Part shown: positions 11,089-52,180 of the stretch, one piece after another
How positions within the stretch are numbered: the stretch's first letter is position 1
Layout: each line of letters opens with the position of its first letter
Origin: Candidatus Hermodarchaeota archaeon
GTDB taxonomy: Archaea; Asgardarchaeota; Hermodarchaeia; Hermodarchaeales; Hermodarchaeaceae
Reading direction: 5' to 3'
DNA length: 57,405 bases
NCBI GenBank assembly: GCA_016839365.1
Contig: JAEOUH010000010.1
Location: 1-57,405 of the forward strand
Position numbers and translations under genes: made by a program
The notes under the pieces: model-generated
What the model saw: the letters and a program-made list of their open reading frames with translations, nothing else
What the model was told of the DNA's origin: nothing
Databases searched by the model: none

Positions 11089-11387
11089 TTCTTCTTCACT
11101 TCCTAACAAATACGTCGATACCGTAAAATTTGGACCAACATCTTTTCTCGAACACAACAATCAGTTTTGTTCTTTTTCGTCATTTCATCCGACTCCATTC
11201 GTTTTTTTAACGATTGATAACGTTTACGAAACGATAGAAATATTTCGTTCTGATTTAGACTACAATCGTTCACAAATATAAACCTTTCTAATTTAATCAG
11301 AATCGATGAGACCTAATAAAAAATCGGAAAGGCACATTCCGCACACTTAAAGGCATATTTGAGAAAGCACAGGCAGGCGATTCTCTC
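11089..11387. promoter_or_regulatory. Divergent promoter region with nested inverted repeats
   Basis: This 299-base AT-rich gap between divergent genes holds two nested inverted repeats: AACGATT (11209-11215) facing AATCGTT (11264-11270), and ACGAAA (11226-11231) facing TTTCGT (11243-11248). An AT-rich AAATATAAAC stretch follows near 11274. The layout resembles operators for the adjacent winged-helix regulator, possibly controlling both directions. I see no open reading frame of note here. Confidence 0.45.
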
Positions 11388-41920: not shown

Positions 41921-43135
41921 GTGCCATCCTTACGAGAACTTCTCCGTCATGAAGGTGTTGCAGCCTTCGTTGTCTTCTTGGCATTTTGTAGTATTGTGTG
42001 GATCATTTTTCTTTCGTATTCGTGGGGGGTCGACTTCGTACCTCGTCTTGCATTGGATGATGATACGATGCACAAAACCGTCATTTATTATATGCTGCAT
42101 GGAGAGGATTTCTATACGGCATGGCGGCATGCAGCTCTTGTCACAGGAGACTTGGGGGATCTGAGGATTTATCGGACGCCATTAATCTTTTATCCAGTAG
42201 TCTTTCTAACGGGATGGGCGGGATCCAGCTTTATTTTTCCACTCAGCGTTCTTTGTGTCCTAGTGGCAGCGCTTAATCTAATTCTAACCTTTTGGGTTGT
42301 CCGGAACATCACTGGATCAGGTTGGGCAGCTTTAGCGGCGACTTTCATTCAATATGCCTTTTTCTTCAATGTCATCCCACTATTTCAAATTGCATTATTT
42401 GCGATGCCCTTTGTGATATTAGCCGTGTATTGGGCATGGACCGAGCATCCATGGCTTGCTGGCGGATTCATTGCCATCGCTTTTCTCATCAAGGAAACTT
42501 TTCTTTTTGCCCTTCCGGCGATTCTCATTTTCTTCGCGTTGCGGCGACAGGGACGTTCAGTAGGAATTATGATTATGATTTTCATAGCCGCTGTAGGTCT
42601 CTACTTGGTCCACACACTCATCGCCCAGCCCATCCCTGATCCCTCGATGATGTTGACAGCTAGTCCACCTGAATTCTTCATCAATTTAGCTGGATTTCTC
42701 TGGTTTGGATTCGGTGTAATCTATTATAATGTCATTGCCCCAGCCGCTTTCCAAGGCTACTATCCTTCGAATCCAGTCCCAGCGTTTTTACCATTACCCC
42801 TTTTCAATGGTATCTTAATGCTTCAAGTTATTCTTGTCTGGGGAACTATCAGCTGGTGGTTTATCCGAGTTATTCGTAAGCATGTGCGCCCTCCCATTCC
42901 TCTCCTGTTCCTAGCTCTGTTACTGTGGCTCGTTCCGGTTATTTTCGCTGCCACGACGCATGTGAGTGATTTTGCCTTGTATTGGGTTGATTACGCGATA
43001 TGGCGGTGGTTCGGGGCATCTTATGTGGGATTTTCACTCCTTGTGGGTCTAAGTTGGACGGATATACGATCAATCTTCACCAAACCCTCGGAACACACTT
43101 CAACTAACCATCCTGTGACTGGTGATTTGGGATGA
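41921..43135 (+). CDS. GT-C-type multi-spanning membrane protein
   Basis: A 404-residue membrane protein with about ten helices. An acidic motif ALDDDTMHKTVIYYMLHG lies in the first outer loop, as in GT-C glycosyltransferases such as the PMT/DUF2029-like enzymes that use lipid-linked sugars. The substrate and acceptor are unknown. The start is GTG 41921, a weak site. It follows the HTH gene by about 80 bases and ends 278 bases before the convergent WD40 gene; that gap contains the candidate RNA described below. Confidence 0.75.
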   Translation: MPSLRELLRHEGVAAFVVFLAFCSIVWIIFLSYSWGVDFVPRLALDDDTMHKTVIYYMLHGEDFYTAWRHAALVTGDLGDLRIYRTPLIFYPVVFLTGWAGSSFIFPLSVLCVLVAALNLILTFWVVRNITGSGWAALAATFIQYAFFFNVIPLFQIALFAMPFVILAVYWAWTEHPWLAGGFIAIAFLIKETFLFALPAILIFFALRRQGRSVGIMIMIFIAAVGLYLVHTLIAQPIPDPSMMLTASPPEFFINLAGFLWFGFGVIYYNVIAPAAFQGYYPSNPVPAFLPLPLFNGILMLQVILVWGTISWWFIRVIRKHVRPPIPLLFLALLLWLVPVIFAATTHVSDFALYWVDYAIWRWFGASYVGFSLLVGLSWTDIRSIFTKPSEHTSTNHPVTGDLG

Positions 43136-43175
43136 AAATGGCTCAAGACCGTTGTGCCTTCATTTACACAAGTAG

Positions 43176-43184
43176 TATAAAAAG
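43176..43184 (+). promoter_or_regulatory. TATA box of the candidate RNA gene
   Basis: TATAAAAAG lies in the gap between two convergent genes, about 26 bases before the base-paired start of the candidate RNA. No protein gene on the plus strand follows closely. Confidence 0.5.
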
Positions 43185-43205
43185 TAGCCAACGACCATAA
43201 GAATC

Positions 43206-43307
43206 TGTTACTAACGATTCCAGATTAGGCATTACTCTTGGCGTTTGCCTCTTGACCGAGGGCGGCGTTTGACCTCCGGCGCCCTCGCTCCTTTTGGTTT
43301 AGTAACG
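43206..43307 (+). ncRNA. Candidate structured RNA with a three-way junction
   Basis: A GC-rich segment in the gap between convergent gene ends. An 8-bp closing stem pairs GTTACTAA (43207-43214) with TTAGTAAC (43299-43306), plus one G-U pair. Inside are a 5-bp hairpin, AGGCA/TGCCT (43227-43231/43246-43250), and an 8-bp hairpin, CGAGGGCG/CGCCCTCG (43257-43264/43280-43287). The element starts about 26 bases after TATAAAAAG, the distance of an archaeal start site. It does not match 5S rRNA, tRNA, SRP RNA or RNase P RNA motifs known to me. The 3' end is uncertain: further hairpins (43313-43329, 43330-43350) follow up to the WD40 stop. Function unknown. Confidence 0.45.
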
Positions 43308-43413
43308 CAGCAGATGCATGGGAAGCATCAGGGGATTACCGATGACCCCTCCGGCTTCGTGGCCTTGGATGGCGAGGCATTCCATCATTTTAAACCGGCA
43401 GAGCGAAGAAGAT

Positions 43414-44310
43414 TCAATGAGATTTTTGGTGAGGCTTGCGAATTTCCCACACACGGGCTTTCCCATCTGCGGAACCGACGGCTAACCAACGTCGCTTGGG
43501 AGAAACGCTTACAGAATATACTCCTTTTATTGGTAATTCGTACTGTTTATCGATGTCACCAGACCGTAGATTCCACATTCGCACCCCGTAATCGATGGCG
43601 GCAGCCACCTTTTTGCTATCTGCGGTAAATGTTAGATCCATAGCTCGAGATTCGAGGGCTAGCGAATAGACTTGTTCCCAATTCCGTGTATCCCATATTA
43701 CCAGAGTCTCTTCATACCCAATTGATCCAAGTAATTCACCATTCGGTGAAAACTTCACTGCGTTGACAGCCGTTTCATGGCCTTGGAGTCGTTGAATGAG
43801 TTCGCATGAAGGGAAGGTCCAAAGATAGATATTCTCCCCAAGGCCAGCACCAATAAGATATTTGCCATCAGGGGAAAAATCAACGGAACTAACATTACGG
43901 CCGATTTCTGTTAAAGTTAAAAGCTCTTTACCTGTCTGAAGGTTCCAGATTTTTACTTCTCCATCGTAGGAGCCTGAAGCAATGTATTCACCCGTCGGGG
44001 ACACAGCTACTGTGGCTACGGTTTTTTTGTGCCCACTAAGTGTGTATTCAACATCTCCTGAAGAGTAATTCCAGATTTTAACTGTGTTATCTGTCGAACC
44101 TGTGACCAAAAATTCCATGGTTGGAGTTAATGCAATCGCATTGACACTATTCGTATGACCAAAGAAGGTGTGTTGTTGTGTCCACTCCTGAACTGTCCAT
44201 GCATGGACAAGGTTATCCTGTCCAGAGGTTAATAAAACGGAGTTGTCTGGTGAAAACAGGACTTTGGTGGTGTGACGCGTATGGGCATCGATGACAATTG
44301 GTGATTCCAT
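43414..44310 (-). CDS. WD40-repeat protein
   Basis: A 298-residue protein of seven WD40 repeats, enough for one beta-propeller. Repeat ends are seen as VHAWTVQEW, VKIWNYSSGD, VKIWNLQTGK, IYLWTFPSCE, LVIWDTRNWE, VRMWNLRSGD and ARVWEIRKPH. Such propellers act as protein-binding platforms in cytoplasmic complexes; no other domain is present. ATG 44310 has GGTGA upstream, which makes it the better start than a GTG seven codons earlier. It has no close partner gene except geranylgeranyl reductase upstream on the same strand, 112 bases away. Confidence 0.85.
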   Translation of the reverse strand: MESPIVIDAHTRHTTKVLFSPDNSVLLTSGQDNLVHAWTVQEWTQQHTFFGHTNSVNAIALTPTMEFLVTGSTDNTVKIWNYSSGDVEYTLSGHKKTVATVAVSPTGEYIASGSYDGEVKIWNLQTGKELLTLTEIGRNVSSVDFSPDGKYLIGAGLGENIYLWTFPSCELIQRLQGHETAVNAVKFSPNGELLGSIGYEETLVIWDTRNWEQVYSLALESRAMDLTFTADSKKVAAAIDYGVRMWNLRSGDIDKQYELPIKGVYSVSVSPKRRWLAVGSADGKARVWEIRKPHQKSH

Positions 44311-44421
44311 AACCTTCACCAAAGTAACCATTCCAAGCTTCTAGGAATGGAAACTAGTCTACCATTGTTCTGAGCCCAGTAAAAAGCATAACTAAAGACT
44401 ATTTTATTATCTGGTTGGAGT

Positions 44422-51727: not shown

Positions 51728-51970
51728 TCAACCCTTTCCCTTATCAATAGCAGATTTTTTCGATTTAGTCTCTTGGACGATTGGTTCCGCTTCGCGGATC
51801 TGGAAGTTTCTGTCAACGAAGAGTACGCTTTGATGACCATTCGAGCAAGACGCGGTGATTAGCACGAGAACACGCGATGCGTTGAGAATTGCCTCTTCTT
51901 CGACGGTTATATCCCTGATGAAGGTCCCGCAGGTGTGGCTTGGATGCCGTGGTAGTGCCCGTTGGGTCAT
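51728..51970 (-). CDS. Hypothetical protein, 80 residues
   Basis: A short frame upstream of the longin-like gene on the same strand, with a 25-base gap. It shows a plausible beta/helix pattern (ASRVLVLITASCSNGHQSVL) and a basic tail (KSKKSAIDKGKG). No family recognised. No clear ribosome site precedes the ATG. It could be a genuine part of the GTPase operon or a chance frame. Confidence 0.35.
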   Translation of the reverse strand: MTQRALPRHPSHTCGTFIRDITVEEEAILNASRVLVLITASCSNGHQSVLFVDRNFQIREAEPIVQETKSKKSAIDKGKG

Positions 51971-52126
51971 GGCTGGTCACTTGTGCTTTCGTTCCCCAGA
52001 TGAGTAAGTAATTTCGACTCTGATAGCTTTTGTTTAATACCTTTCTCTCGTTGTTGTCTTCGATTTCGGTTTCTGAAGAATTCGTGGGACCTATTGAAGT
52101 TTTTGTAAATTAAGTAATTATCTTCA

Positions 52127-52142
52127 AGGATTCATGAATCCT
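52127..52142. repeat. 16-base perfect palindrome
   Basis: AGGATTCATGAATCCT, a perfect palindrome, lies 38 bases past the stop of the minus-strand aminotransferase gene and 157 bases before the small hypothetical gene. It could form a 6-bp hairpin with a CATG loop (3' end element) or serve as a dimer binding site. No T-run follows. Confidence 0.5.
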
Positions 52143-52180
52143 GGCGTTTAAGCAAACCCTAGTGAGTACTGGGCTTATAC

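Follow-up and report, generated by a model that had tools for sequence, protein, structure and literature searches.

Does the gap between two convergent genes in a Candidatus Hermodarchaeota genome encode a structured RNA with a promoter of its own? The window, which is the whole stretch of 57,405 nucleotides analysed, is contig C24 of a genome (G000) that is 83.7% complete, and apart from the gap at 43136-43413 no convergent gap within it reaches 75 bases. A preliminary description had placed a candidate new RNA gene here, at 43176-43307, with a TATA box of its own. Comparison with related genomes indicates that positions 43207 to about 43347, or perhaps to about 43391, very probably encode an independently transcribed, structured, non-coding RNA on the plus strand, present as a single-copy gene.

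Conservation and distribution of the convergent gap

Gene calls on both sides agree with the earlier claim that the gap lies between two 3′ gene ends. The upstream gene (41921-43135, plus strand) encodes a membrane protein resembling glycosyltransferase family 87, with a match to Pfam GT87 just under the cut-off, and the downstream gene (43414-44331, minus strand) encodes a WD40 repeat protein and is followed by a geranylgeranyl-reductase-like gene. Both convergent genes are considered here as context only. A DNA search of 99 relatives recovered the gap in G002 (81% over approximately 183 bases), G004 (72%), G001 (70%) and G007 (73% over approximately 100 bases), while G005 was brought in through synteny rather than by DNA search. 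Together with G000, these are the six genomes compared, all from Hermodarchaeota and representing two genera. Two other genomes were uninformative: a search of the G003 assembly did not recover the neighbour genes, and in G006 the contig stops before the RNA.

Among relatives that share the locus, the neighbouring proteins are 51-83% identical. The gap itself scores 190, 119, 96, 65 and 56 in G002, G004, G001, G007 and G005, respectively. As a control, all window gaps of at least 75 bases were compared against the same relatives, and in the same genomes the gaps located up to about 10 kb away in either direction score 14-87. Conservation is far higher in the convergent gap than in the gaps around it; two more distant gaps in the window are well conserved too, in one genome each.

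In G005 and G007 (loci L012 and L059), no WD40 gene was found in this position, and the RNA directly faces the geranylgeranyl-reductase-like gene. Because the element keeps its position in both genomes even though no WD40 gene adjoins it, the RNA is not tied to that gene. Each genome carries one copy of the RNA at one syntenic place, and a mobile or repeated element, for which several copies would be expected, was rejected.

Two covariance models searched against 228 genomes of the phylum yielded credible matches only in this RNA family, although distant relatives may be missed because the models derive from few, close sequences and the filters are strict. No homologues were found near the geranylgeranyl-reductase-like gene in other Asgard genomes. 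A candidate paralogue on contig C37 of G000 (E 0.01) was discarded, as it lies within an alaS-like coding sequence and only the 3′ block matches. Weak matches in G011 and G051 likewise fall in coding sequence and were attributed to chance.

Predicted promoter and transcript ends, and conserved helices

The TATA box reported at 43176-43184 on the plus strand, TATAAAAAG, is present and is invariant in all six genomes. The bases that separate it from the closing stem are variable; the spacing, 30-33 nucleotides upstream of that stem, is nearly fixed, an arrangement that points to a promoter belonging to the RNA itself. An upstream block on the same strand, TGTGCC...TTACACAAG (43153-43172), is largely conserved in the six-genome alignment and is a probable promoter-proximal element. 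In G004, the open reading frame of the upstream membrane protein enters the TATA box (locus L010, where the frame ends at 1528 and the box occupies 1524-1532).

Archaeal TATA boxes stand at a usual distance from the transcription start, and this distance would place the start of the predicted transcript within a few bases of 43207. Model matches in six genomes delimit a conserved RNA body at 43207-43347 on the plus strand. The first T-run downstream (43388-43391, plus strand) is a weak candidate for the 3′ end, and a scan for terminators found none; the 3′ end is uncertain, from 43347 to about 43391. The interval first proposed contains the TATA box and the closing stem but stops short of the end of the RNA, whose conserved part continues to about 43347. 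Indeed, the strongest conservation, in the invariant blocks CAGCA-NN-TGC-N-TGGGAA and GGGGA, lies 3′ of that interval.

Three helices of the plus-strand RNA recur among the relatives. The 8-bp closing stem that had been described, P1, pairs GTTACTAA (43207-43214) perfectly with TTAGTAAC (43299-43306) and is supported by covariation. It carries compensatory changes in G004 (GTTACTGG/CCAGTAAT) and G001 (GTTACCGG/CCGGTAAC) and wobble changes in G005 and G007 (GTTATTAG/TTAGTAAC). Inside P1, the predicted fold of G000 contains an 8-bp hairpin, CGAGGGCG (43257-43264) with CGCCCTCG (43280-43287). The P3 hairpin (43258-43286; GAGGGCG at 43258-43264 with CGCCCTC at 43280-43286) shows a C-G to U-G to U-A series at one pair as well as several G-U changes. 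P4 (43313-43329; GATGC at 43313-43317 with GCATC at 43325-43329) bears a conserved NTGGGAA loop; within it, G-C is replaced by U-A in both G005 and G007, and A-U by U-G in G005.

Of the two hairpins said to lie within the closing stem, both appear in the predicted fold, but only the 8-bp one is conserved. The 5-bp hairpin (43227-43250; AGGCA at 43227-43231 with TGCCT at 43246-43250) is variable, being unformed in G001 and missing in G005 and G007, where about 25 bases are absent. The three-way junction predicted for G000 is therefore not a constant feature and would form in some members only. The segment CCTCTTG (43248-43254, plus strand), by comparison, is invariant in six genomes and mostly unpaired. 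Further hairpins had been noted up to 43350, and these correspond to P4 and to the 3′ element GGGGA...GATGACC (43330-43350, plus strand), which can form AGGGG/CCCCT. The GATGA that comes after GGGGA is found in five of the six genomes, with a longer hairpin in its place in G002. A pseudoknot joining the P4 loop to the strand that follows P3 was dropped, since visual inspection allowed it in five genomes but not in G001.

The single-sequence fold of G000 is no better than chance (z -1.37, with 19 of 200 shuffles folding equally well), so that the reasons first given for an RNA are not proof by themselves and the case rests on comparison. The alignment used for covariation was fitted to a model, R2, built from four sequences with G001 and G004 left out. 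Across P1, P3 and P4, seven pairs have changed on both sides, although these represent few independent changes, about five or six, because the six sequences come from only two genera. Alignment of the homologous gaps, the check that the preliminary description had proposed, supports P1, P3 and P4 in this way. Overall, 94.7% of cells pair, whereas slid controls pair in 34-56% of cells, and none of 500 shuffles reached the number of doubly changed pairs, the covariation score or the percentage paired. R2 also retrieves the two left-out sequences, G001 at E 3e-19 and G004 at E 6e-24, with new compensatory pairs in P1.

RNAalifold, compared with column-shuffled controls, gave z -6.0 for a hand-made block alignment and z -5.0 for a plain MAFFT alignment (0 of 500 controls each); the latter value is the fairer one, since the hand alignment was built with knowledge of the stems. 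Alignment A9 places P3 of G001 out of register, and all seven P3 pairs form once the register is set by hand. In the hand alignment, G-U cells on the plus strand outnumber A-C cells by 12 to 1. An A-C cell on this strand would be a G-U on the opposite one, and the imbalance therefore argues for an RNA read from the plus strand and against an element that acts at the DNA level.

Taken together, the comparisons support a conserved promoter, a conserved fold (P1, P3 and P4), the assignment of the transcribed strand and non-coding status. The proposal of a structured RNA gene that carries a TATA box of its own is borne out by the invariant box, compensatory stems, strand-specific wobble pairs and the absence of both a shared reading frame and a matching Rfam family.

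Function and alternative explanations

Our best reading is a lineage-specific RNA of about 145-190 nucleotides that would act in trans. Transcription would proceed from the RNA's own TATA promoter, starting near the closing stem, and the product could act as a stable folded molecule. Stems P1, P3 and P4 might then hold exposed segments of invariant sequence (CCTCTTG, the TGGGAA loop and GGGGA) in position for partner binding. We tentatively favor a base-pairing regulatory small RNA, with something under an even chance, which is somewhat likelier than a scaffold for a dedicated RNA-protein particle, a function that we consider possible. That the RNA is specifically the core of a Hermodarchaeota-specific RNA-protein particle, as opposed to a guide RNA or a small RNA that pairs with mRNA, seems rather improbable. 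When 51 start regions in the window were searched for duplexes, none surpassed the shuffles. Anti-Shine-Dalgarno pairing of CTCCTTTT was rejected, because G001 does not conserve that strand and the duplex energies are no better than those of shuffles.

The location between two 3′ ends and the hairpins themselves would also suit a cis-acting 3′ UTR or termination structure, common to both convergent genes and lacking a transcript of its own, and in G002 the block ends in a long hairpin followed by TATTTT. We nevertheless judge this explanation quite unlikely. The invariant TATA box points into the element at a spacing of 30-33 nucleotides, no terminator-like site emerged from the scan, the G-U pattern suits one strand only, and the element is conserved even where it faces a different convergent gene.

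Guide RNAs of the H/ACA and C/D types are numerous in archaeal genomes, a point in favor of an atypical H/ACA-like or C/D-like guide for rRNA or tRNA modification. Like archaeal H/ACA RNAs, the candidate has a long hairpin with an internal loop; ACA follows P1 in G005, a CACA stretch follows it in G004, and a GATGA motif resembling box C occurs in five genomes. However, ACA stands directly after the stem only in G005, and because GCA follows P1 in G000, G007 and G001, there is no conserved ANA box. Inspection of the six sequences reveals no kink-turn above the pocket, and the P3 loops differ and are without conserved tandem GA. Moreover, one strand of the internal loop, at 15-40 nucleotides, is oversized. 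With respect to C/D guides, inspection finds no box D (CUGA) and only a partial box C (RUGAUGA), the GATGA being absent in G002. Since no Rfam guide family matches either, we give this assignment very little weight.

Weakest of all is a short protein-coding gene, for example one read from the ATG in P4, which we consider highly unlikely: in the four genomes that belong to one genus this frame stays open over some distance, but it is broken in G005 and G007 by a one-base insertion and stops, predicted peptides lose all similarity where conservation of the RNA ends, P4 pairs change in a compensating manner, and a search for a conserved coding frame, as had been suggested, found none open across all six genomes.

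Relation to known RNAs

No Rfam family matches in the gap at gathering score, and the one sub-threshold match seen at a relaxed threshold, to an insect element, was set aside as chance. The initial failure to recognize tRNA, 5S, SRP or RNase P motifs agrees with covariance-model searches, in which the tRNA, RNase P RNA, SRP RNA and 5S rRNA models have no match in the window; RNase P RNA, SRP RNA and 5S rRNA were found on other contigs. The candidate is similar in size to 5S rRNA and likewise has a closing stem that encloses hairpins, but it gives no 5S match, and these genomes encode their true 5S rRNA at another site.

Intergenic small regulatory RNAs of archaea include sRNA154 and sRNA162 of Methanosarcina mazei and sRNA132 of Haloferax volcanii (PMC3510493, PMC6560208, PMC5867862). 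The RNA described here resembles them as a single intergenic gene for a small non-coding RNA that could base-pair in trans. It differs in belonging to an Asgard lineage, and comparison through Rfam shows no sequence relation to them.

A search of a literature library returned no paper that describes novel structured RNA genes from Asgard archaea. From the sequence comparisons, we take the predicted RNA gene to be real, new and lineage-restricted, and to represent a new family within the independently transcribed structured RNAs of archaea; on present evidence it is not a new kind of system. The family is characterized by a promoter, by three helices with covariation support and by a covariance model that can be used in searches, which makes a direct search of metatranscriptomes feasible. 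If expressed, the RNA would join a short list of lineage-specific RNA genes reported from the archaea that stand closest to eukaryotes. Should it prove to be the core of a particle, it would constitute, in that group, a functional class new to archaeal non-coding RNA.

Two other intergenic regions of the window were noted for their conservation. The divergent region at 11161-11387 shows unusual conservation in the comparison with G001 (145 of 178 aligned bases). It carries repeated AACGA/TCGTT palindromic halves, which makes an operator region for the neighbouring winged-helix-like regulator the probable explanation, in preference to an RNA. The 340-base gap at 51841-52180, between two same-strand genes, is identical to its G002 counterpart at 181 of 232 aligned bases.
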